Source: Kryptolebias marmoratus (taxonomy: Eukaryota; Chordata; Actinopteri; Cyprinodontiformes; Rivulidae). Taken from it: a stretch of DNA of 64,000 bases. The DNA is taken from the NCBI RefSeq assembly GCF_001649575.2, contig NC_051433.1:18632326-18696325 (forward strand), read 5' to 3'. The position numbers were made by a program, and so were the translations under genes. Below are positions 5,021 through 36,648 of this stretch, in pieces (the first letter of the stretch is position 1; every line of letters starts with the position of its first letter). The notes under the pieces were generated by a model that was not told the DNA's origin, ran no database searches, and was given only the letters and a program-made list of their open reading frames with translations.

Positions 5021-5536
5021 TCCAGGGACTGTTTGGTCTTGAAGCCTCACTATGGAAAGGCCAGAGCTGTCAGAGAACTTTAGATCCAGTCTATATTCAG
5101 CCTGTACACGAGGAGGTGTCTGCAGTCGACAGGCTCGAGTCAAACACTCCTCCTCTTCTTCTGTTCTTGTTTTCAGTCCGTCGGCAGAAATAGCAGGCCG
5201 AGGTTGTCGGTGAAATTCCCACTTGANGGGGGGGAAAGAAGAAAGAAAACGAAACCAGCACCGACCGCCCTGAGCTGAGTGATAAAGAGCGTTGTCTCAG
5301 TCGGGTTCTTGAGGGCTTTGATTTTCACCATTTGTCCCGAGCGTCACAAGTTCTCCTTAACCCGGCAGAACGGGGGCCGTCCCTCATTTTATCAGCTGCT
5401 TTTATTCAGTTTCGATGGAGATCAAAGCAACATGCCAGCAGCCAGCAGAGCATGCATGCATTATCAATCATGTCTGTGGCTTTTTGTTGTTCAGGAAAAT
5501 ATATTGTTGGGATCAAAAGGAAAGGGTCATCAAAGG

Positions 5537-18500: not shown

Positions 18501-18961
18501 GTCGTGTTTTAGCGAATGGCACGGCAGAACCTAAGAGCGCAGGCAATTCATAAAGCCTTTTAATAAGGAAACTCCAGGACGGAGCGAGAGAGCTACATCG
18601 GAGAGCCTGACAGGGGGACAACGAGTTTATATGAGCAGGGAGGAGTGATTAGTGAGTGAAACAGGTGTGCTGGTTACAAATGGCTGACAGGTGTGTGAGA
18701 CAGGGCAACCAATGGCTGAACAGGTGGCAAAAGAACTGATAGCTACAAACCGAAAAAAAAAAAAAAACACTTGTGGAAATAAATTATACAAAAGCGCACT
18801 TAAAGAAGGTTCCTGCATCTAATTTCAGACACTCCTTCAAACAATCTAATGTTGTGTATTTGAATTTGAGTGAAAAGGTTTGAAACAGGGGAGTAACTTG
18901 GAGGCTATTTGTTCTTATCTTTTAAAAGCATTAAAGAAATAAGTGAGATATTATAAATTAG

Positions 18962-19290
18962 GGTTCCTTGAAGAGGTTGTGAACTATTATTATCTTACCT
19001 GTCGTACATAGTTTTTCGAACTGCTTGTGTTTGGAAAAAAAAAGGTTTTTAATTCTGACCAGATTGACAAACTAATTGCTAGTTTGAGTCGGCACAAGAA
19101 CAAAATGGATTCCTGTCATCTAGAAACAACTCCAGTCTTAAAGGTTTCATGGTGGTTTATGCAGATATTATTTTCTGAATCTTTACATCTCTTTTGTTTT
19201 TGTATTATGTGAATGTTCTAGCTGAAATACATTCCTGCTTGAAGGGCCTCAGGTTGCATTGGGAGAGCTACGGCTAGCTGATGCTGCAGA
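18962..19290 (+). repeat. Dispersed repeat family B, copy 2
   Basis: Shares GAAGAGGTTGTGAACTATT, CTTACCTGTCGTACATAGTT, CCAGATTGACAAACTAATTG and GGTTTCATGGTGGTTTATGC blocks with the copy at 22900, more diverged from the copy at 6693. No coding sequence is seen. Confidence 0.6.
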
Positions 19291-21419
19291 TCCTTGCATT
19301 TGTGGAAACCATAACATTCAGCAGAAAACAGTGAAGTGTGACTTTAATGGCAAATTCTGGTTGTTTTTACAAATTGCATCCATTATCCATTCTTTTTTTT
19401 TTCTTTTTTTATAAACCAATTACATCTTTCATGGTTTGTTTTCTGTTTTCTGTTTTCTGTTTTCACGACATTCATACGGCCCAAAAATAACAGTCTGGGG
19501 TATTTTTGCCACTTGGTGGGTGGAACCCTTGTATGAGGCGCCTGCAGCGTCATCACACGCCTCTTTGTGAGGAAAGCCCGAGTCTTTTGACAAGCTGTAT
19601 TTTACAACAAACACAATCTCCTTCTAACCCCTAAACCTGGTTGTTTTGGCGAAAATCCCTAACAAAGAAGTTTATTTGTTTGAAACCTAAACAGTGCGTG
19701 ATTACAGATATACATTAGAACAATGGGCTCACAGGGAGCTGGAACAGTTTCATCAGAACAGAGTAAAAACAAATAGAAACTCGGGTTTGTCGAACTCCTT
19801 CTCTGTTTAATCTGTTTATTATGAGCGCAAAAGGCGAGATTCCAAAAGCGGTGAAAAAACAAAGAGGTGAAATGGGTTTGAAGCGACTGCATGAACAGAT
19901 CAGACGGGTCCAGCCACGTGATACCCTCTGACTCGGCCACCCAGCAGTCGTCCGTCCTGTTGGTACCCAATTAATGACTCATTAACCTGTTTAGATGGAG
20001 CTGCTGCGCCTCAGGTTACGAGGCCAGCAAACCTGCACTTCACCCCGCTGGCTCGGAATCAGATTAGTTTCACCTAATTGGTGGCGGTCATTGTTTTAGC
20101 TTTTTAAGGAGGAAAGATCCAGTTTCATAAGCGGCGGGAGAGAAAGCATGGGCTGACAGAGATTGCAGATTGTATGAATAGAAGTGTTATTTTGTGTTTG
20201 CTGCAGCTCCACTCAGACACACACGTCCTTTCTTCTCGTCTTTGCACAAAATTGTATGCATTTTAAGCCTTCATTATTGACATTAGTGTGCATTTTTGTG
20301 TATTCTCAAGGACGATGGGGTCTATTTCAGTCCATTTTTGTGTCCCTCTGTTCACTTAAAATGTTTGTTCTTCTTGCCAAACACAGGCCCATTAATAGTG
20401 CATGAATTTGAAAAATAAAAATAAAAAGCAAATTGAGAGCAAACAGCAGCAATACATAAATTTATTTAATATTCTCTGTGCTTTCAGCACAAGCTGCTCA
20501 GCTTGTGCACTGCCTGGTGAAATCATGACAGCTAAGATTAATCTTGCTCATTTGAAGAAGCATCACTGAGCGCTGCAGACAAAACAACTTTTCCTTTTTA
20601 CACCGGGGTTGTATCTTTATTCCAACTGTTTCATTATTTAAGTATAACTCAACATACATCTGTGTTTAAAAAAGAAGTGACTACTCATAGCGCATGCTGC
20701 CTTTTGATCCTGGTTTTCATAAGGTTAAAATGTACTTCATTGTTCGTTCAAACCTTCCCACGAGAATGACACCGGGCCTGAAGTGAACTGGGAGGATGTG
20801 AGCCTCAGTAATCCAAAGCTAATCAATGTGTTAGTGTTCAAGTGTTACATGGAGACTGGCTCTGTCCATGGGCCTTTCACGTGGTAAGTGAGACTAATCT
20901 CACAGCATTACTATAGCCAAACTAATCATTTCTAAAGGCAGACAGTAGGCTTTTGGAAACCATTCAAAGCTGGGCTGTGGCACAGGCTCATGGGAAATTT
21001 TCTGGCAAGTTCTGAAATTCAGCTGCTCTTTAATTCACGAAACGCGCACGTGTCCTTATCATCCTCCATCAAAAATTCCCATCCACCTGTCTGTATGAAG
21101 CACTTACTGCCTCCCTCTCTCTCTCACACACAGACTCCCTCCCGCTCAGTGTACGAGGCCAGGTGGTGTGGTTAGAGCCAGATCTTGCTCTCTGCTCTCC
21201 TGAGTGCAATTGGTAACCCGAGCTGCCTGTTTGAATAACTCACTTATCCCAAACGCTTCCCCACTGCAGAGACATACGCTAATATAAGAGTGCTCTAAAC
21301 AGACTTTCTCTAAACTCATGATATTCACCGATTCTTAGGTGATCGCCCAAAATCCAGTGCTGTACAGAGTTCAATTTAGGGTTGTAATCTTTTTTTTGGT
21401 ATCTGATAGGATATCTGAA
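19291..21419. other. Unannotated spacer within duplication copy 1
   Basis: Contains four tandem TTTTCTG units near 19436-19463 and a small hairpin at 20487-20508 (GCACAAGC, 6-base loop, GCTTGTGC). A CT tract lies near 21115. No exon is recognised; open frames reach 103 codons without motifs. Confidence 0.45.
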
Positions 21420-21720
21420 AAGGGATAGTTCAGATATTTTGAAGAGGGGTTCTGTGGACACTGTCCAGGGAGTACCCCGCTTCTCGCACAGCGAGTGCTG
21501 GAGATATGCATTAGCTCCCTTGCGACCAGCGACATGTATGGATGGTTATTTACATAGAATTCTGTTTATTTAAAAGCACGGTAGCGGCAACAGCAACTAG
21601 CTGTAGCACTTCCAGCAGGGATATCGTAACATTTCTGCTGGGATCACCATGCAAAGTGAAACGACAGCACTGTAAACGATTATATAATATTGTTTCAATA
21701 AAATGCTTTGAAATTTTGGA
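21420..21720 (+). repeat. Composite: family B ends around a common fish repeat fragment
   Basis: It begins like family B (AAGGGATAGTTCAGATATTT, GGGGTTCTGTGGAC). It then switches at about 21464 to CCAGGGAGTACCCCGCTTCT, GAGTGCTGGAGATATGCA and ATGGATGGTT. That resembles the frequent teleost repeat with GGGTGTACCCCGCCTCTCGCCC from memory. A family-B-like AGCACTTCCAGCAGGGAT follows near 21605. Confidence 0.5.
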
Positions 21721-22899
21721 TTTTTAAAAAAATCTGATCCTTGGCTTTAACTCAATCATATTTAATAGTACAGACACTTGTACACATACTATATACTGCC
21801 GCGTCACCTCTTTTCATTATTTTTGTTTAAATGTTCACTTTCAGCACTTTCTAGGCTCTTCAACAATTATGTACTTTTCAAAAAGGCAGCATCTGCTTTG
21901 ATTAGTTAAAAGGCTGGGATGTGCTAAACTGGCCAATATCCAAATATGTTTCAAGACATTGCTGTTAATATATAAAAAAAGAAGGCACTACCAGCATTTC
22001 AGCTATTTTAGTTGCAGGATTTCTGGTCACCTAGATGATGTTTCCCAACAAAATTAAATAGAAAGAAAATGTCAAAACTCAAATTTTGGCCTGTTTCAAG
22101 TTATTTTGAAGTTACTTATTGTTTTGTATTAAATATATCATAAAAAAAAATACTTGCTTAAATAGCTTGACCTTTAAAAAAGTTCAAACGTGTCACAAAA
22201 TGTCACCCATTATATCCCATTTGTTTGAGTGTCTCTGCTGATAGAGTTACGGCACACGGGCTTCAAGCATCTGTGTTTAATTTGAAATTCCCCTTGTTTG
22301 CTGAAGCTCCCCGCCAAACGTATCGGCCATCATTTTGTGAAGGAATTTTCTCATTTAAACACGGCTCCCTGTAAATCTGTCTCTGACTCGTCGCGCTGCA
22401 GACGGAACCTGCAGATGCAGAGTGTCCTGCAGCACGCTGAAGTTAAACCGGGCCCGTCAGAGGGTAACTCTGAGTGTTATCTCAGTTGTCCCGTAAAGAT
22501 TTGTCGTCACCCTGTCCCAACACCAGCACCAAGTAGACCCTAAACATTACTGCCTGGGGGGCTTCTTTACTATTGTGTAGCTTCAATGTAAAGCAAGTGT
22601 GTGTGTATTTGTCTCGCTTGACTCGAACAGAAGAAGAACTTGAAGAAACAATTCTAAAAATTAACATAAAAGATAAAAATTAACCTCATTGTTACGGACA
22701 TGTTTTGTAGTGACTGACAGAAGCAATGTTTTTAATGCCCTTTTAAGATGAGTTTTTTTCTCTTTCATATTGCCATTTGCGAGGTTTTGTTGGTATTTGT
22801 ATTTTGGGCTATGGAAATAATGACATTTTTTTAAAATTTAGACCACTTTCATTGAAACGGAACAATAAATAACAGATGATGCTAAGGGAGGCTCACTCT
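21721..22899. other. Unannotated spacer within duplication copy 1
   Basis: AT-rich to about 22300, then a more balanced stretch (22300-22560) with CpGs and PstI-type CTGCAG motifs. No exon with credible splice sites is recognised. Confidence 0.45.
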
Positions 22900-23215
22900 C
22901 AGAGTTCTTGTTCGTTGACAGAGATGTGAAGAGGTTATGAACACTTAACATCTTACCTGTTGCAGATAGCTCTTTGAATGACCTCAGTTTGGAGAAACTG
23001 AGAATAATGACTGACTGGATTGACGAGCTAGTGGCTAGTTTGGGCGCGGCCAAGACCAGAGTGAGTCGTATCTGTCTAAGAAGAACTTGAATCTTAAAAG
23101 AATTATAGTGGTTCATGCAAATGCTCTTTTATAAACCGCCATCAGAATTGCATTGCATTATGAAATTCCTGTTGGAAGTGTCACAGCTAGCTGTTGCCAT
23201 TTGCACTTGCAAATA
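22900..23215 (+). repeat. Dispersed repeat family B, copy 3
   Basis: GAAGAGGTTATGAACACTTA, CTTACCTGTTGCAGATAGCT, CCTCAGTTTGGAGAAACTGA and ATTATAGTGGTTCATGCAAA match the copy at 6693 closely. It ends in ATTTGCACTTGCAAAT. Confidence 0.72.
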
Positions 23216-24559
23216 ACCATGCAGTTCTGCATAAATAACCATGACATATCTTTGCCTGAACTCAACTGATCAGTTCTGAACATACAAGTGAGGAAGAGGC
23301 AATCATCAGCCGATCAGCCGCTGTATTAAACTACCCGCCTAATTTGGGACCTCTTGAGTCCTGAATGGATTCTGCAAGACCTTTAAAGGTCTCCTGGGTA
23401 TCAGCAGGTGATTCAAGTCTTGTAATTTATAAGGTTCGTGGATGCGACTTTTTGCTTTTGTTTTCCAGCACATCTGGCAGATGTCGAAGTGACACTCACT
23501 TTGGCACCGTGACCAAAAAGAGGAGCGTGACAGTGATTTGTGGACAAGGCTTTCTCCCAAACTGCATCCTGACACCGTGTCTTCAGATAAAATATGCTCT
23601 CTGGATCTGACCACATGCCTTTGCTTTCTCCACGAGGATCTGTGATTTTTGGGTGCCCATGACCCTGTTGGCAGTTCTTACTCGTGCAACTTCTCTCCGG
23701 TGACCATTAGTGAACAACCCGCAAGATGCTCCGACCCGGTTGTCTACTTATCACAATACGGCTCTCGTCAAAGTGGCTCAGGTCCGTGTGCTTCTTCATT
23801 TTTCTTGCTTCTAACACATCAACTTTCAGAACTGACGGGTTGCTCTCCGCCTAATGTATCCCTCCCACAGACAGGTGCCACTGGAAAACAGATAATGGTG
23901 TTATTTACCTCCCGTGTCAGAGATTTAAACTTTACAGGCAAACATTTTACTTTGCCACTTTATTAGTTTACTTTCCAGATTCATTCGTAAATACAAAATA
24001 TAAATTCTTTATAGTTTTTCCTTGAGTGTTGGAATGGGGGAACACAAACAATGATTAAATGGAATTAGCCAAACTAAAACCTATATTAACTAAAATAAAA
24101 CTTATTATACATCGAAAATTGAAGAAAAGGGTGGTTTTCTACACAATGTGAAGGCAATCCCACGTGCTTCAGTAAACTAGAATCTTATAATTCCTGTCAT
24201 TATGTTGCTTGTTTTAACTTTTTAAAATAAATATATAGGTCACCCGCTAATTTATCCGCTATTTCCTTTGATCCCTGCTTAAAAACCATTTGTTTTTACT
24301 GGCTTTTAGTTTGAGTTGAGCAGGTCATTTGTCTTTCAAGTTTATTTGATTTATTTTTAAATTCATTCGAAGCTATTTTATTGTGTATTAGTTTATCCTT
24401 ATTGCTTTTATACTATTACCGTTTATTACATGACTCGTTGTACAGCACTTTGGTCAATGAAAGCTGGTTTCAAATGTGCTATAAACAAACTTATTTTATT
24501 TAATTTCATCGTTACTTCCTGGATTGTTCATAGCCTGTTGCCGAAAGCTCTGGTGGACA
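23216..24559. other. Unannotated spacer within duplication copy 1
   Basis: Mixed sequence to about 23950, AT-rich from 23950 to 24420. No gene or element is recognised. Confidence 0.5.
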
Positions 24560-25265
24560 ATGCTTTTGCTCATATGTGTGTGTTAGCATGTCTGTCTGTT
24601 AGCAAAATAGCTCATGAACCACTAAGCAAATTTGAATGAAAGGTGTACAGAACAGTCACTGTGTGTATATCCACAGCTTGATAACATTCAGACTCAATCC
24701 AGTTCAAGATAGCTGCCACAGCCAAATGACCTTAACAACGCAACAATGGCTACAACTCAGCTAATTCTCCAAATATTGACCTAAAATGTGGTGTGGTAGT
24801 AGCTGAGACTGATCCCCAACACATGTGTTGAGTTCTAACAGATTGAGCAAGATCTTTCTTTAAAATCTCGCCGTTACCTATTTGGTGCCAACTTTGTCCG
24901 CAAAAAATCTCATGAACCACTGGATAGAGGTAAATGAAACTTTCAGGAAAAAGTCATTGGATGTAGCTCTACAACTGATTAGATCCAGTTAAAATCAAGA
25001 TGGCTACCACAGTCAACTAACCTTGGAAAACACAGAAGTGACTATTCGTCTGTCAGTTTTACAGATATTGTGCTGAAATGTGGAGACGTTGGAGCTGGAA
25101 GTTATTCAGAATTCGTCCTCTTTTTGTGAGGTCTTTGCTTCAAATGTTGGAGTCAACCCTCCCTGTTTGTCTGTTAGCAAAATATCTCATGAACTACTGG
25201 CCAGATTTGAATGAACTCTCAGAAAGTAGTAGATGTGGTAGTAGCCGAGAGTCAGCCACAGCACA
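24560..25265 (+). repeat. Family A, tandem copies upstream of the promoter
   Basis: CTCATGAACCACT-type blocks occur at about 24611, 24910 and 25187. CAAGATAGCTGCCACAGCC and CAAGATGGCTACCACAGTC lie near 24706 and 24998. Two complete units and a partial third are present, spaced about 270-300 bp. The last ends only about 40 bp before the CpG-rich promoter begins. Confidence 0.78.
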
Positions 25266-25449
25266 TAGTCTGAGCCATCATTTCTCCTCGAGGGATATTT
25301 GACTTCAAAACTTTGGCACGAAAGGCGGCGGGTGATATGCATTCCCTCCAGGGACGCCGGCGAAGCTCTTCAGTGTTTACATCTTGTGCTGTGAAGCCCT
25401 CTATGGGCGGGGCGCGGTACTGCAGCGGCGGGGCGCCTCCTCCTCCCTC

Positions 25450-25613
25450 CTGGAGCCGGGGCTGCATTCCTCTCCTCTCGGCTCCATTCACACGCAGGGA
25501 GACGTCGCAGAGAGAGCACCGCGCCACCTCCGTGACCAGCGTGGAAATGTACCCAAGTTTTGGAATTTAAAAAACCATGGCCGGGACACCGACCCTCCGG
25601 ATCACTTGAATCT
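25450..25613 (+). other. Probable 5' non-coding first exon with splice donor
   Basis: The exon ends at the donor CT|GTAAGTACC (GT at 25614-25615), a good match to the vertebrate consensus. A second possible donor, GGGGTAAGCC, lies at about 25639. The 5' limit is uncertain. All ATGs inside open only short frames: MYPSFGI (25547-25570) and MAGTPTLRIT (25577-25609). The main start codon must therefore lie in a later exon. No matching downstream exon was found in the window. Confidence 0.5.
25577..25609 (+). promoter_or_regulatory. 10-codon upstream ORF with strong Kozak context
   Basis: AACCATGGC has A at -3 and G at +4. The frame MAGTPTLRIT ends in TGA four bases before the splice donor. A uORF with this context in a 5' leader usually lowers translation of the main frame. 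That effect is an inference, as the main frame is not visible. Confidence 0.45.
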
Positions 25614-25960
25614 GTAAGTACCGAGAGCAGCCCGGCGCGGGGTAAGCCCTCGAGTGGAAGGAGCAGGGGGTTATGTTTTGTTTTTGTTTTTGTTTTATGT
25701 GGAAAAACATTCCCATTGGTGGGTTATAGTGCTTCCCCCTCTGCGCGACACGGACCCCCCGTGGACACTCGGGGGGGTCTTTTAGGAGTTTAGCAGGCGC
25801 GAGGAAGACGTGTAGGAAGAAGCCTTCACGTTACAGTTAAGTGTAAGGAGAGCGGCTCGTACCCACGGAGAGGAGCTGCGGGCAGCGCGAGACTTCAGCT
25901 GGCGAACTTCATCCATTTAAACGCGCCTTTTAGCCCTCTTTAATTACCACCTGGTGCTGG

Positions 25961-26719
25961 AAACTAAGAACTGTGTGTGTTTGTCCTCCGATATGTGGCG
26001 GAGCGTGATGCGAGTTTTCCGGCTGCAGTCAGGGAAAAAAAAAACTTGCGCGTAATAATAAAGCAAAGCTGTAAAAAAAAAAAAATATTCGGACCTGCTT
26101 GTTGCTCACAGGGAGGAATGTTAATGTCACCGCCGACACATATAATTACATATATTCAAGAGGCTGACACTTCACTGTCGCCTGGATAAAATGGTCCCGG
26201 GGGACTGCAGGTGGCTTTAATAAATACTAAAAAAAAAACCTCACTAAATAAGCTCGTGCTTCTATTTATTCTATTTCTTTTCTCAAACTGGACTGAATCC
26301 GCATGTTTAGAGGACCTCAGGGAGGAGTTGGGTTTGAATGTGTCTCCAAGGGGTTAGGGACACACTGTTTGCTAGAAGAGGGTGGGAAAAGGAGAAGGAG
26401 AAATCGATCTCCCCCTCTTATTAGCTTTGAAATAATTAGAAATTGCGCCGGTGTGGTGTGAAAAGCGCGTTAATCTGTTAACGAACGAGAGGCAATTTGG
26501 GAGCTTTGTTATTCGACAGCAATTGAATCCCCCTCTCTGCGCGGGGATGGAGTGCTGAGGGCTGGCTGTGGGTGTGTTGGAGTGCGCATTTGCTTGTCAG
26601 CTATTGAAAATGCTCTCATTGCTCTATTGGATTCTCCTCAGTTCCATTTTTATTGTCATTATCATTATATTAGTCTATATTTTTAAATCAAATCCCGGTT
26701 CACCGAATTAGTGTGTGCA
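25961..26719. other. First-intron start with putative regulatory sequence
   Basis: Follows the donor. Contains A tracts (about 26035 and 26073) and a balanced stretch 26380-26560 with GAAATAATTAGAAATTG and GCGTTAATCTGTTAACG. The latter resembles a conserved intronic enhancer. No exon is recognised. Confidence 0.35.
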
Positions 26720-26750
26720 CCCCCCCCCCCCCCCACACACACACACACAC
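26720..26750. repeat. C-run plus (CA)n, altered microsatellite of copy 1
   Basis: Fifteen C are followed by about eight CA units. The equivalent site in copy 2 (34797-34827) is pure CA and two bases shorter overall. It lies about 80-110 bp before the N at 26832, consistent with poor contig-end sequence. Confidence 0.9.
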
Positions 26751-26831
26751 TCCCTCCCCACATGCTGTGTGAATTCATTTGGAGCCCGTTTTAAATATGT
26801 ATTCATGAATCAATTTGGATGAGCAAAGGCT

Positions 26832-26832
26832 N
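26832..26832. other. One-base assembly gap at the duplication junction
   Basis: A single N separates the end of copy 1 from a 14-A run that starts copy 2. A one-base N often stands for a join of unknown or negative length. Confidence 0.9.
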
Positions 26833-27040
26833 AAAAAAAAAAAAAACACTTGTGGAAATAAATTATACAAAAGCGCACTTAAAGAAGGTTCCTGCATCTA
26901 ATTTCAGACACTCCTTCAAACAATCTAATGTTGTGTATTTGAATTTGAGTGAAAAGGTTTGAAACAGGGGAGTAACTTGGAGGCTATTTGTTCTTATCTT
27001 TTAAAAGCATTAAAGAAATAAGTGAGATATTATAAATTAG

Positions 27041-27369
27041 GGTTCCTTGAAGAGGTTGTGAACTATTATTATCTTACCTGTCGTACATAGTTTTTCGAAC
27101 TGCTTGTGTTTGGAAAAAAAAAGGTTTTTAATTCTGACCAGATTGACAAACTAATTGCTAGTTTGAGTCGGCACAAGAACAAAATGGATTCCTGTCATCT
27201 AGAAACAACTCCAGTCTTAAAGGTTTCATGGTGGTTTATGCAGATATTATTTTCTGAATCTTTACATCTCTTTTGTTTTTGTATTATGTGAATGTTCTAG
27301 CTGAAATACATTCCTGCTTGAAGGGCCTCAGGTTGCATTGGGAGAGCTACGGCTAGCTGATGCTGCAGA
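27041..27369 (+). repeat. Family B, duplicate of 18962-19290
   Basis: Same sequence as the family B copy in duplication copy 1, shifted by 8079. Confidence 0.6.
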
Positions 27370-29498
27370 TCCTTGCATTTGTGGAAACCATAACATTCAG
27401 CAGAAAACAGTGAAGTGTGACTTTAATGGCAAATTCTGGTTGTTTTTACAAATTGCATCCATTATCCATTCTTTTTTTTTTCTTTTTTTATAAACCAATT
27501 ACATCTTTCATGGTTTGTTTTCTGTTTTCTGTTTTCTGTTTTCACGACATTCATACGGCCCAAAAATAACAGTCTGGGGTATTTTTGCCACTTGGTGGGT
27601 GGAACCCTTGTATGAGGCGCCTGCAGCGTCATCACACGCCTCTTTGTGAGGAAAGCCCGAGTCTTTTGACAAGCTGTATTTTACAACAAACACAATCTCC
27701 TTCTAACCCCTAAACCTGGTTGTTTTGGCGAAAATCCCTAACAAAGAAGTTTATTTGTTTGAAACCTAAACAGTGCGTGATTACAGATATACATTAGAAC
27801 AATGGGCTCACAGGGAGCTGGAACAGTTTCATCAGAACAGAGTAAAAACAAATAGAAACTCGGGTTTGTCGAACTCCTTCTCTGTTTAATCTGTTTATTA
27901 TGAGCGCAAAAGGCGAGATTCCAAAAGCGGTGAAAAAACAAAGAGGTGAAATGGGTTTGAAGCGACTGCATGAACAGATCAGACGGGTCCAGCCACGTGA
28001 TACCCTCTGACTCGGCCACCCAGCAGTCGTCCGTCCTGTTGGTACCCAATTAATGACTCATTAACCTGTTTAGATGGAGCTGCTGCGCCTCAGGTTACGA
28101 GGCCAGCAAACCTGCACTTCACCCCGCTGGCTCGGAATCAGATTAGTTTCACCTAATTGGTGGCGGTCATTGTTTTAGCTTTTTAAGGAGGAAAGATCCA
28201 GTTTCATAAGCGGCGGGAGAGAAAGCATGGGCTGACAGAGATTGCAGATTGTATGAATAGAAGTGTTATTTTGTGTTTGCTGCAGCTCCACTCAGACACA
28301 CACGTCCTTTCTTCTCGTCTTTGCACAAAATTGTATGCATTTTAAGCCTTCATTATTGACATTAGTGTGCATTTTTGTGTATTCTCAAGGACGATGGGGT
28401 CTATTTCAGTCCATTTTTGTGTCCCTCTGTTCACTTAAAATGTTTGTTCTTCTTGCCAAACACAGGCCCATTAATAGTGCATGAATTTGAAAAATAAAAA
28501 TAAAAAGCAAATTGAGAGCAAACAGCAGCAATACATAAATTTATTTAATATTCTCTGTGCTTTCAGCACAAGCTGCTCAGCTTGTGCACTGCCTGGTGAA
28601 ATCATGACAGCTAAGATTAATCTTGCTCATTTGAAGAAGCATCACTGAGCGCTGCAGACAAAACAACTTTTCCTTTTTACACCGGGGTTGTATCTTTATT
28701 CCAACTGTTTCATTATTTAAGTATAACTCAACATACATCTGTGTTTAAAAAAGAAGTGACTACTCATAGCGCATGCTGCCTTTTGATCCTGGTTTTCATA
28801 AGGTTAAAATGTACTTCATTGTTCGTTCAAACCTTCCCACGAGAATGACACCGGGCCTGAAGTGAACTGGGAGGATGTGAGCCTCAGTAATCCAAAGCTA
28901 ATCAATGTGTTAGTGTTCAAGTGTTACATGGAGACTGGCTCTGTCCATGGGCCTTTCACGTGGTAAGTGAGACTAATCTCACAGCATTACTATAGCCAAA
29001 CTAATCATTTCTAAAGGCAGACAGTAGGCTTTTGGAAACCATTCAAAGCTGGGCTGTGGCACAGGCTCATGGGAAATTTTCTGGCAAGTTCTGAAATTCA
29101 GCTGCTCTTTAATTCACGAAACGCGCACGTGTCCTTATCATCCTCCATCAAAAATTCCCATCCACCTGTCTGTATGAAGCACTTACTGCCTCCCTCTCTC
29201 TCTCACACACAGACTCCCTCCCGCTCAGTGTACGAGGCCAGGTGGTGTGGTTAGAGCCAGATCTTGCTCTCTGCTCTCCTGAGTGCAATTGGTAACCCGA
29301 GCTGCCTGTTTGAATAACTCACTTATCCCAAACGCTTCCCCACTGCAGAGACATACGCTAATATAAGAGTGCTCTAAACAGACTTTCTCTAAACTCATGA
29401 TATTCACCGATTCTTAGGTGATCGCCCAAAATCCAGTGCTGTACAGAGTTCAATTTAGGGTTGTAATCTTTTTTTTGGTATCTGATAGGATATCTGAA
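27370..29498. other. Unannotated spacer within duplication copy 2
   Basis: Same content as 19291-21419, including the small hairpin (here 28566-28587) and the TTTTCTG units. Confidence 0.45.
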
Positions 29499-29799
29499 AA
29501 GGGATAGTTCAGATATTTTGAAGAGGGGTTCTGTGGACACTGTCCAGGGAGTACCCCGCTTCTCGCACAGCGAGTGCTGGAGATATGCATTAGCTCCCTT
29601 GCGACCAGCGACATGTATGGATGGTTATTTACATAGAATTCTGTTTATTTAAAAGCACGGTAGCGGCAACAGCAACTAGCTGTAGCACTTCCAGCAGGGA
29701 TATCGTAACATTTCTGCTGGGATCACCATGCAAAGTGAAACGACAGCACTGTAAACGATTATATAATATTGTTTCAATAAAATGCTTTGAAATTTTGGA
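29499..29799 (+). repeat. Composite family B / common fish repeat, duplicate
   Basis: Duplicate of 21420-21720. Confidence 0.5.
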
Positions 29800-30978
29800 T
29801 TTTTAAAAAAATCTGATCCTTGGCTTTAACTCAATCATATTTAATAGTACAGACACTTGTACACATACTATATACTGCCGCGTCACCTCTTTTCATTATT
29901 TTTGTTTAAATGTTCACTTTCAGCACTTTCTAGGCTCTTCAACAATTATGTACTTTTCAAAAAGGCAGCATCTGCTTTGATTAGTTAAAAGGCTGGGATG
30001 TGCTAAACTGGCCAATATCCAAATATGTTTCAAGACATTGCTGTTAATATATAAAAAAAGAAGGCACTACCAGCATTTCAGCTATTTTAGTTGCAGGATT
30101 TCTGGTCACCTAGATGATGTTTCCCAACAAAATTAAATAGAAAGAAAATGTCAAAACTCAAATTTTGGCCTGTTTCAAGTTATTTTGAAGTTACTTATTG
30201 TTTTGTATTAAATATATCATAAAAAAAAATACTTGCTTAAATAGCTTGACCTTTAAAAAAGTTCAAACGTGTCACAAAATGTCACCCATTATATCCCATT
30301 TGTTTGAGTGTCTCTGCTGATAGAGTTACGGCACACGGGCTTCAAGCATCTGTGTTTAATTTGAAATTCCCCTTGTTTGCTGAAGCTCCCCGCCAAACGT
30401 ATCGGCCATCATTTTGTGAAGGAATTTTCTCATTTAAACACGGCTCCCTGTAAATCTGTCTCTGACTCGTCGCGCTGCAGACGGAACCTGCAGATGCAGA
30501 GTGTCCTGCAGCACGCTGAAGTTAAACCGGGCCCGTCAGAGGGTAACTCTGAGTGTTATCTCAGTTGTCCCGTAAAGATTTGTCGTCACCCTGTCCCAAC
30601 ACCAGCACCAAGTAGACCCTAAACATTACTGCCTGGGGGGCTTCTTTACTATTGTGTAGCTTCAATGTAAAGCAAGTGTGTGTGTATTTGTCTCGCTTGA
30701 CTCGAACAGAAGAAGAACTTGAAGAAACAATTCTAAAAATTAACATAAAAGATAAAAATTAACCTCATTGTTACGGACATGTTTTGTAGTGACTGACAGA
30801 AGCAATGTTTTTAATGCCCTTTTAAGATGAGTTTTTTTCTCTTTCATATTGCCATTTGCGAGGTTTTGTTGGTATTTGTATTTTGGGCTATGGAAATAAT
30901 GACATTTTTTTAAAATTTAGACCACTTTCATTGAAACGGAACAATAAATAACAGATGATGCTAAGGGAGGCTCACTCT
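29800..30978. other. Unannotated spacer within duplication copy 2
   Basis: Duplicate of 21721-22899; nothing further is recognised. Confidence 0.45.
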
Positions 30979-31294
30979 CAGAGTTCTTGTTCGTTGACAG
31001 AGATGTGAAGAGGTTATGAACACTTAACATCTTACCTGTTGCAGATAGCTCTTTGAATGACCTCAGTTTGGAGAAACTGAGAATAATGACTGACTGGATT
31101 GACGAGCTAGTGGCTAGTTTGGGCGCGGCCAAGACCAGAGTGAGTCGTATCTGTCTAAGAAGAACTTGAATCTTAAAAGAATTATAGTGGTTCATGCAAA
31201 TGCTCTTTTATAAACCGCCATCAGAATTGCATTGCATTATGAAATTCCTGTTGGAAGTGTCACAGCTAGCTGTTGCCATTTGCACTTGCAAATA
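30979..31294 (+). repeat. Family B, duplicate of 22900-23215
   Basis: Same sequence shifted by 8079. Confidence 0.72.
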
Positions 31295-32638
31295 ACCATG
31301 CAGTTCTGCATAAATAACCATGACATATCTTTGCCTGAACTCAACTGATCAGTTCTGAACATACAAGTGAGGAAGAGGCAATCATCAGCCGATCAGCCGC
31401 TGTATTAAACTACCCGCCTAATTTGGGACCTCTTGAGTCCTGAATGGATTCTGCAAGACCTTTAAAGGTCTCCTGGGTATCAGCAGGTGATTCAAGTCTT
31501 GTAATTTATAAGGTTCGTGGATGCGACTTTTTGCTTTTGTTTTCCAGCACATCTGGCAGATGTCGAAGTGACACTCACTTTGGCACCGTGACCAAAAAGA
31601 GGAGCGTGACAGTGATTTGTGGACAAGGCTTTCTCCCAAACTGCATCCTGACACCGTGTCTTCAGATAAAATATGCTCTCTGGATCTGACCACATGCCTT
31701 TGCTTTCTCCACGAGGATCTGTGATTTTTGGGTGCCCATGACCCTGTTGGCAGTTCTTACTCGTGCAACTTCTCTCCGGTGACCATTAGTGAACAACCCG
31801 CAAGATGCTCCGACCCGGTTGTCTACTTATCACAATACGGCTCTCGTCAAAGTGGCTCAGGTCCGTGTGCTTCTTCATTTTTCTTGCTTCTAACACATCA
31901 ACTTTCAGAACTGACGGGTTGCTCTCCGCCTAATGTATCCCTCCCACAGACAGGTGCCACTGGAAAACAGATAATGGTGTTATTTACCTCCCGTGTCAGA
32001 GATTTAAACTTTACAGGCAAACATTTTACTTTGCCACTTTATTAGTTTACTTTCCAGATTCATTCGTAAATACAAAATATAAATTCTTTATAGTTTTTCC
32101 TTGAGTGTTGGAATGGGGGAACACAAACAATGATTAAATGGAATTAGCCAAACTAAAACCTATATTAACTAAAATAAAACTTATTATACATCGAAAATTG
32201 AAGAAAAGGGTGGTTTTCTACACAATGTGAAGGCAATCCCACGTGCTTCAGTAAACTAGAATCTTATAATTCCTGTCATTATGTTGCTTGTTTTAACTTT
32301 TTAAAATAAATATATAGGTCACCCGCTAATTTATCCGCTATTTCCTTTGATCCCTGCTTAAAAACCATTTGTTTTTACTGGCTTTTAGTTTGAGTTGAGC
32401 AGGTCATTTGTCTTTCAAGTTTATTTGATTTATTTTTAAATTCATTCGAAGCTATTTTATTGTGTATTAGTTTATCCTTATTGCTTTTATACTATTACCG
32501 TTTATTACATGACTCGTTGTACAGCACTTTGGTCAATGAAAGCTGGTTTCAAATGTGCTATAAACAAACTTATTTTATTTAATTTCATCGTTACTTCCTG
32601 GATTGTTCATAGCCTGTTGCCGAAAGCTCTGGTGGACA
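31295..32638. other. Unannotated spacer within duplication copy 2
   Basis: Duplicate of 23216-24559; no gene or element is recognised. Confidence 0.5.
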
Positions 32639-33344
32639 ATGCTTTTGCTCATATGTGTGTGTTAGCATGTCTGTCTGTTAGCAAAATAGCTCATGAACCA
32701 CTAAGCAAATTTGAATGAAAGGTGTACAGAACAGTCACTGTGTGTATATCCACAGCTTGATAACATTCAGACTCAATCCAGTTCAAGATAGCTGCCACAG
32801 CCAAATGACCTTAACAACGCAACAATGGCTACAACTCAGCTAATTCTCCAAATATTGACCTAAAATGTGGTGTGGTAGTAGCTGAGACTGATCCCCAACA
32901 CATGTGTTGAGTTCTAACAGATTGAGCAAGATCTTTCTTTAAAATCTCGCCGTTACCTATTTGGTGCCAACTTTGTCCGCAAAAAATCTCATGAACCACT
33001 GGATAGAGGTAAATGAAACTTTCAGGAAAAAGTCATTGGATGTAGCTCTACAACTGATTAGATCCAGTTAAAATCAAGATGGCTACCACAGTCAACTAAC
33101 CTTGGAAAACACAGAAGTGACTATTCGTCTGTCAGTTTTACAGATATTGTGCTGAAATGTGGAGACGTTGGAGCTGGAAGTTATTCAGAATTCGTCCTCT
33201 TTTTGTGAGGTCTTTGCTTCAAATGTTGGAGTCAACCCTCCCTGTTTGTCTGTTAGCAAAATATCTCATGAACTACTGGCCAGATTTGAATGAACTCTCA
33301 GAAAGTAGTAGATGTGGTAGTAGCCGAGAGTCAGCCACAGCACA
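32639..33344 (+). repeat. Family A tandem copies, duplicate
   Basis: Duplicate of 24560-25265. Confidence 0.78.
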
Positions 33345-33378
33345 TAGTCTGAGCCATCATTTCTCCTCGAGGGATATT

Positions 33379-34039
33379 TGACTTCAAAACTTTGGCACGA
33401 AAGGCGGCGGGTGATATGCATTCCCTCCAGGGACGCCGGCGAAGCTCTTCAGTGTTTACATCTTGTGCTGTGAAGCCCTCTATGGGCGGGGCGCGGTACT
33501 GCAGCGGCGGGGCGCCTCCTCCTCCCTCCTGGAGCCGGGGCTGCATTCCTCTCCTCTCGGCTCCATTCACACGCAGGGAGACGTCGCAGAGAGAGCACCG
33601 CGCCACCTCCGTGACCAGCGTGGAAATGTACCCAAGTTTTGGAATTTAAAAAACCATGGCCGGGACACCGACCCTCCGGATCACTTGAATCTGTAAGTAC
33701 CGAGAGCAGCCCGGCGCGGGGTAAGCCCTCGAGTGGAAGGAGCAGGGGGTTATGTTTTGTTTTTGTTTTTGTTTTATGTGGAAAAACATTCCCATTGGTG
33801 GGTTATAGTGCTTCCCCCTCTGCGCGACACGGACCCCCCGTGGACACTCGGGGGGGTCTTTTAGGAGTTTAGCAGGCGCGAGGAAGACGTGTAGGAAGAA
33901 GCCTTCACGTTACAGTTAAGTGTAAGGAGAGCGGCTCGTACCCACGGAGAGGAGCTGCGGGCAGCGCGAGACTTCAGCTGGCGAACTTCATCCATTTAAA
34001 CGCGCCTTTTAGCCCTCTTTAATTACCACCTGGTGCTGG
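33379..34039 (+). promoter_or_regulatory. CpG-island promoter, duplicate
   Basis: Identical to 25300-25960, with GC boxes at 33484-33492 and near 33504. If the duplication is false there is one promoter, not two. If it is real, two identical start regions 8.08 kb apart would drive the same downstream gene. Confidence 0.6.
33529..33692 (+). other. Probable 5' non-coding first exon, duplicate
   Basis: Identical to the exon at 25450-25613, with donor CT|GTAAGTACC (GT at 33693-33694) and the same uORFs (MAGTPTLRIT at 33656-33688). This copy is contiguous with the unique downstream sequence. Confidence 0.5.
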
Positions 34040-34795
34040 AAACTAAGAACTGTGTGTGTTTGTCCTCCGATATGTGGCGGAGCGTGATGCGAGTTTTCCG
34101 GCTGCAGTCAGGGAAAAAAAAAACTTGCGCGTAATAATAAAGCAAAGCTGTAAAAAAAAAAAAATATTCGGACCTGCTTGTTGCTCACAGGGAGGAATGT
34201 TAATGTCACCGCCGACACATATAATTACATATATTCAAGAGGCTGACACTTCACTGTCGCCTGGATAAAATGGTCCCGGGGGACTGCAGGTGGCTTTAAT
34301 AAATACTAAAAAAAAAACCTCACTAAATAAGCTCGTGCTTCTATTTATTCTATTTCTTTTCTCAAACTGGACTGAATCCGCATGTTTAGAGGACCTCAGG
34401 GAGGAGTTGGGTTTGAATGTGTCTCCAAGGGGTTAGGGACACACTGTTTGCTAGAAGAGGGTGGGAAAAGGAGAAGGAGAAATCGATCTCCCCCTCTTAT
34501 TAGCTTTGAAATAATTAGAAATTGCGCCGGTGTGGTGTGAAAAGCGCGTTAATCTGTTAACGAACGAGAGGCAATTTGGGAGCTTTGTTATTCGACAGCA
34601 ATTGAATCCCCCTCTCTGCGCGGGGATGGAGTGCTGAGGGCTGGCTGTGGGTGTGTTGGAGTGCGCATTTGCTTGTCAGCTATTGAAAATGCTCTCATTG
34701 CTCTATTGGATTCTCCTCAGTTCCATTTTTATTGTCATTATCATTATATTAGTCTATATTTTTAAATCAAATCCCGGTTCACCGAATTAGTGTGT

Positions 34796-34796
<1 letters not shown>
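34040..34796. other. First-intron start, duplicate
   Basis: Duplicate of 25961-26719, including the TAATTA-bearing stretch at about 34460-34640. Confidence 0.35.

Positions 34797-34827
<31 letters not shown>
34797..34827. repeat. (CA)n microsatellite of copy 2
   Basis: Pure CA units of about 31 bp. This is the only site where the two 8.08-kb copies visibly differ. Confidence 0.95.
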
Positions 34828-34829
<2 letters not shown>

Positions 34830-34908
34830 CCTCCCCACATGCTGTGTGAATTCATTTGGAGCCCGTTTTAAATATGTATTCATGAATCAATTTGGATGAG
34901 CAAAGGCT

Positions 34909-36648
34909 TAAGAGTTAATTTTAACCTTTTTTTATCACCTCCCAGAAAGATAGGAGGGGAAGTGAGGCCAGACTGGAGCTTATCAATAAAATCACTGCAG
35001 TTGTCCTTAAATATTGATGCAGGACTCCTGCAATCTAAATTGTAGCACAAAGGCATGAGTTTTCTATGATTATTGGGGGTGATTTTTTTTTTCTTCTTCT
35101 TCTTGCATCAGTTTCTGCAAGCAGCAGCTTCTTACTGACAGTTTTAAAATAAGGGATGGGAACTGAAATGAAACTAAATAGGAATTTGAACTGTGACGAG
35201 CGTTTACTTAAGAAGTGGCGCCCAACCTGACTGCAGGCAGAGAGGGACATTTCACCAACACACAGCAGAAGTGAAATGATCGTGTTCCTTCGCAGCAAAC
35301 GGTTTCGCGAGCGCAGGACTGCCAGCCAGGAGAGGCCATATGTTATACGACACATCCTGCGAGTACTTGTTGAGATCTGTAACCGGACCCAGACTTTCTT
35401 GCAGTGTCAAACCATCCGTCGCTGCGTTTGCTGCAAGGATCTGAGTTTAATTTCCTGATGATCAGATCACGATGAGCTGGGTGCAGGTTCAGGCATGTCC
35501 CAATAACCACACTGTCATAACCTAAATTTAGCCGAGTTCTAATAATCAGGCTGTGTCCCAACAAGTTCCCAATGTAAAGCAGAGGAAGAGAGGCTTTTTT
35601 AAAAAAAATCTATTGATATATAAACATTTTGTTTTGCCAAAGCATCCTAACGTAAAAGCTGGCAAACCAGCCAGAAAATTACAAGCAATTTGCCTCAATC
35701 ATCCCTAATTATGATAGGGATCTTCTCCACTGTGGGACCTGCGGTGTCATGAAGTTTCCGAGCCTGCCCTGTCCGGTCTGTCTGCTGGTGCCGCTGTGAA
35801 GAGTGAACCGGTGATGTCCAAACTTTGGAATCTGAGCTGACACGTGCACTTTGCACCGCTCCAGCCGTGCTTTTGTGTGGCTGCCCCTGCGTCGCATTCC
35901 TCCGGACCTTTCAGTCGGCGGTATAGTCAGGGTCTAATTAGATTGTTGCTGGATGACAAAGCAGACTGGCAGGGTTGAAAACTGAAATGCACACAGTTAG
36001 ACTGGTGGTAAATGTTCTGTTTTAATTTGTGTATTGATGAGTTTGGTGGGTGTTTTGTTTCTTTTTTTTTTTTCTTCTTTTAGAAAAAAGGGGAATAAAA
36101 CGAGGATTTAAATTAAACTCCTGGAGGCACACCTGGGACTTTCTCAGCTTGAATGAAAAGGGGAAAAAATGCCTCACGGAATCGAGAAAATTGTTTATGA
36201 ATACGGAAAGATTTTCAGCACGTAACTGTAGTCTGCAGGGTGTGTGGTGCTGTGATTCATGACTTTCGTGCTGCAGACCAATACATGGACTGCGTTAACA
36301 TTCACAGTCTGTTGTATTGCCACGCAATAAAATCCAACTCATTTTCCAGTTTCCTTACTGTTTGACATTCTGAACCAATGTGACAACCTCATCTTTAGGC
36401 ATTTCCTCCTCCCGCCTTCCCGCTCTGCCTCTGCTCTTCTTCTCTTCAGACTTGTGCTGCTCACTGCTCACCGTTTTCTTCTCCTCTTCCTTGCTGTCAG
36501 AAACCGATCTCTCCCTCCCCGTCACGCTCTCATGTATATATATGTTTTTATTTTTCCAGTTAATTAGCCTATTCTTCTATCCTTATCCTCACTAAGTGGA
36601 CAGACCTCTTTATTGCCCCTATTCCAAACGACGAAGGCAGATAATAAT
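34909..36648. other. Unannotated spacer
   Basis: Unique sequence resumes. It includes a T/C tract near 35085-35105, a C/T-rich stretch at 36400-36530 and open frames of up to 106 codons on both strands without motifs. No exon is recognised. Confidence 0.5.

Follow-up and report, generated by a model that had tools for sequence, protein, structure and literature searches.

An 8.08-kb tandem segment near plexin-A1 in the Kryptolebias marmoratus assembly, probably a false duplication left by two unmerged contigs

The window, that is, the whole 64-kb stretch of DNA analysed here (C4:18632326-18696325), probably belongs to the plxna1-chchd6 locus. Downstream of it, at a distance of 2.2 kb, an open frame (L019:2216-3403) scores 679 bits against solved structures of plexin-A1, 440 bits against plexin-A4 and 436 bits against plexin-A2. 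By this sequence comparison it is best described as a plexin A, closest to plexin-A1 among A1, A2 and A4; the 22 hits include no plexin-A3 chain, and A3 thus lies outside the comparison. Two upstream open frames match Pfam families, one of them MIC19/MIC25 (PF05300, in L010), a match that does not separate MIC19 from MIC25, the other CHCH (PF06747, in L014). Since the human PLXNA1 and CHCHD6 (MIC25) genes are neighbours, the presence of a plexin-A1 and a MIC19/MIC25 frame makes this assignment of the locus probable. The same region has two neighbouring open frames (L009:864-4730); from the look of the sequences, the one on the minus strand is gag-like with a CCHC-type motif, and the other, a long frame on the plus strand, resembles a RING and SPRY (TRIM-like) protein.

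The window carries the same segment twice, with the following features.

18754..26831, plus strand: copy 1, the overlap segment of 8078 bp, read as the right end of the left-hand contig
18753..18767, plus strand: A15 run inside the left-hand contig; copy 1 starts at its second base
25251..26250, plus strand: CpG-rich block of copy 1; CpG observed/expected 0.81, 0.95 and 1.0 in three overlapping 500-base windows, GC 0.48-0.56
25614, plus strand: GTAAGT splice-donor-like site of copy 1, a sequence motif
26720..26749, plus strand: the differing microsatellite in copy 1, C15 followed by CA repeats
26832, no strand: single N, the seam of both copies (self-BLAST and base-by-base comparison), read as a contig join
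26833..34908, plus strand: copy 2, 8076 bp, the same segment as in copy 1, read as the left end of the right-hand contig
26833-26846, plus strand: A14 run, the start of copy 2
33251..34250, plus strand: CpG-rich block of copy 2; CpG observed/expected 0.79, 0.88 and 1.01
33693, plus strand: donor-like site of copy 2, a sequence motif
34797-34827, plus strand: the microsatellite in copy 2, pure CA

The plexin-A1 open frame starts about 32 kb past the donor-like site at 33693 and on the same (plus) strand. By its position and strand, the CpG-rich block may represent the plexin-A1 promoter together with a first exon that is non-coding. We compared ten candidate open frames from the window with Pfam, of which five lie in the repeated unit and four of these five in its GC-rich block, and none matches at E up to 1; one candidate frame compared with the PDB sequences yielded no match, and Rfam at gathering scores yielded none within the window. 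Coding content of the unit, short exons apart, is disfavoured by the Pfam and PDB results, and the block would be better read as a non-coding first exon.

Self-BLAST of the window aligns 18754-26834 with 26833-34911 in the same orientation. When the copies are compared base by base, a prefix of 7,967 bases and a suffix of 98 bases are identical, so that none of 8,065 positions differs outside one CA microsatellite. With the microsatellite left out, the 95% upper bound for the divergence is about 0.04%. An identical direct repeat of 8 kb far exceeds what chance could produce. The original prediction had described an 8.08-kb tandem segment without visible divergence, with copies at 18754-26831 and 26833-34908 differing in a single microsatellite; all of this holds, including the coordinates. 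The sole mismatch is in the CA tract, where 13 C in copy 1 stand against 11 alternating A/C bases in copy 2 (approximately 26720-26733 and 34798-34810, respectively), the length difference being 2 bases. A C-run had also been reported close to the end of copy 1, and it is indeed present as sequence (C15 at 26720); copy 1 ends at 26831, 82 bases past the microsatellite. Judged by its letters, the mismatch looks like a miscall, with A replaced by C at alternate positions, but it may also be allelic. The consensus would usually be weakest near contig ends, where the CA tract is written partly as C15.

We searched the genome (680,653,423 bases in 300 contigs) with three probes from the repeated unit, 19000-20000, 21000-22000 and 25260-25760, scoring the best 40 of 601, 461 and 387 candidates, respectively. 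Among the matches listed, each probe has 100% matches at two places only, both being the window copies on C4. The remaining matches listed (40, 41 and 38, in the same order) are short and 69-97% identical, like dispersed repeats. Neither a third copy above 97% for the three unit probes, nor another contig carrying the probed parts as a near-identical haplotype, was found among the matches listed. The right flank (34908-35500) has one match in the genome. Dispersed repeats, present in parts of the unit, were considered as a cause of the repetition and rejected, as they fail to account for an identical copy of 8 kb.

The seam lies at chromosome position C4:18659157. The join had been described as a single N beside a poly-A run, and copy 2 as starting at the same run as copy 1; this is what we observe, with the N at 26832 and A14 from 26833, the counterpart of A15 at 18753. 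The 300 bases immediately preceding the N recur 7.8-8.1 kb beyond it with 97% identity, and the first 300 bases after the N match upstream sequence with 100% identity. Hence the left-hand contig ends in the sequence with which the right-hand one starts, as in the criterion of Kelley and Salzberg, the full overlap being 8.08 kb. A gap between the copies, which Ko et al. 2022 list among the marks of a false duplication, is present as the N at 26832. A sequenced read-through junction, the mark of a true tandem duplication, is absent between the copies, the junction base being N. Given six gaps in 264 kb, the chance that a gap falls at most 1 base from the seam is about 7e-5. In copy 1 the sequence continues across the A15 run at 18753, and thus a poly-A run alone is not always an assembly stop.

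The gaps were surveyed in 264 kb, made up of the window and two flanks of 100 kb each. N runs occur at six places in this region and measure 1299, 10, 205, 1, 1 and 1 bases. The window contains exactly three N, all single, at 5227, 26832 and 54107; the two away from the seam are as follows.

5227, no strand: single-N join, followed by G7; flanks without overlap
54107, no strand: single-N join, followed by G15; flanks without overlap

For each gap, 300 bases from each side were compared with 12 kb across the gap. The flanks overlap at one of the six gaps, namely the one at 26832, while by the same comparison no overlap was found at the other five, including the single-N joins at 5227 and 54107. 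Since these two joins lack an overlap, a single N alone is not a proof of overlapping contigs. Five of the six gaps in the 264 kb, including 26832, are directly followed by a homopolymer of 7-15 bases; among 198,645 random positions, 0.5% have a run of at least 7 bases beginning at their right edge and 0.9% have one touching either edge. As five of six gaps precede homopolymers, the left edge of the repeated unit looks like an ordinary contig end. From the sequence around the gaps, the contig starts of this assembly seem to fall in homopolymers, at least in these 264 kb.

We conclude that the two copies are an assembly artefact, a false duplication, with a probability of about 0.93. The proposal that two contigs overlapping by 8.08 kb had been laid end to end is supported by the N on the seam, the lack of divergence outside the microsatellite, the absence of a third copy above 97% among the matches listed, and the homopolymer edge. 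The left-hand contig would end at 26831, just past the CA/C-run microsatellite, and the right-hand contig would start in the poly-A run 8.08 kb earlier (26833 corresponding to 18754). The scaffolder would then have set both contigs side by side, unmerged, with a one-base placeholder between them, and the shared 8.08 kb would thereby have been written twice. We infer that the N at 26832 marks the contig join. As three of the six gaps have size 1, one N may be a floor value for a gap whose size was estimated as zero or negative; the accessible passages from papers on negative gaps and scaffolding, and from a wheat paper, name no one-base placeholder. The position of the N is a stronger argument for an artefact than the identity of the copies, since identity alone does not decide the matter: a young real duplication would be identical too. 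Both contigs presumably come from one haplotype, and it is likely that the artefact is of the homotype kind, with a single haplotype written twice.

An artefact of this kind is already documented, and there is nothing new in kind here. The portions available of Ko et al. 2022 (PMC9516828) give the hallmarks of a false duplication as a gap between the copies, low read depth and discordant read pairs, the depth being half for heterotype and very low for homotype duplications. According to the accessible part of the VGP paper (PMC8081667), homotype duplications often lie at contig boundaries and are approximately of the read length. The present case resembles the homotype duplications in these portions of the two papers (PMC8081667, PMC9516828) in that one locus appears in duplicate where two contigs meet, its copies separated by a gap, and 8 kb would fit the length of long reads in the VGP description (PMC8081667), if the assembly used such reads. 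In contrast, the class as set out there rests on depth and k-mers, whereas here it is proposed from the assembled sequence. The duplicated overlapping contigs of Kelley and Salzberg 2010 (PMC2864568), in the parts available, are likewise adjoining contigs with mutually aligning ends, placed side by side; a mate-pair test is applied there, and the cases are attributed to haplotype differences, whereas our copies are identical save one microsatellite. Similar, in the accessible text of the BiSCoT paper (PMC7649008), are the overlaps that optical-map scaffolding leaves unmerged and that the program corrects: contig 1, a short fixed gap and contig 2, with kilobases of the shared region duplicated. 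However, the Bionano tool discussed in that text writes 13 N, whereas there is one N at 26832.

A false duplication could also have arisen from contigs representing the two parental haplotypes (heterotype), which would be a sub-case of the artefact just described. The 2-base difference in the microsatellite length is what two alleles could show, and the literature leans this way: heterotype duplications far outnumber homotype ones in the portions available of Ko et al. 2022 (PMC9516828), duplicated overlapping contigs are ascribed to haplotype differences in those of Kelley and Salzberg (PMC2864568), and unmerged overlaps are usually allelic according to those of the BiSCoT paper (PMC7649008). 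However, there is no substitution in 8,065 bases. The probability of such a match is 3e-4 at a heterozygosity of 0.1% and 2% at 0.05%, both heterozygosity values being assumed; moreover, the sole difference has the miscall-like pattern described above. This origin is therefore unlikely.

Less probable still is that the 8.08 kb were truly duplicated in tandem, very recently, and that the assembler left the seam open. Such an event could produce identical head-to-tail copies whose left edge falls in a poly-A run, and an unresolved true repeat could itself break the assembly at the seam. No changes in 8,065 bases would set the age of the duplication below approximately 19,000 generations at 1e-8 per site per generation, or approximately 62,000 at 3e-9, the rates being assumed. 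However, the junction of a real duplication should read like other DNA, yet the N sits exactly there. Both contigs extend from unique sequence across an entire copy without any N; for an unresolved identical repeat this would be atypical. The edge also resembles the homopolymers that border other gaps in the neighbourhood. That the animal itself has two identical promoters, owing to a young 8-kb tandem duplication of the plexin-A1 promoter and first exon, is still slightly more doubtful.

If the copies are indeed a false duplication, the chromosome is lengthened by 8 kb, and plexin-A1 is given its presumptive promoter and first exon in duplicate. Since the duplicated unit holds the CpG-rich block, the annotation may show two plexin-A1 promoters in place of one. 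Such an artefact could mislead promoter annotation, copy-number calling and reporter design at plexin-A1. For short reads from the segment, mapping would be ambiguous and the apparent depth roughly halved. The exact seam at C4:18659157 makes the error easy to flag.

The survey of the 264 kb yielded several minor observations. Four gaps (5227 and 54107 in the window, both a single N, C4:18600897 and C4:18603150) directly precede G or C homopolymers of 7-15 bases, which suggests that the contigs of this assembly are prone to break at G/C runs. By megablast, there is only one other repeat of at least 150 bases at no less than 90% identity in the 264 kb, a tandem at L027:9078-9368, which is a direct repeat of 150 bases with 98% identity. 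The gap of 1299 N at C4:18569027 has inverted flanks, in that 23 bases to its left recur in reverse complement to its right; it looks as though the assembly had been stopped by a hairpin or an inverted repeat.
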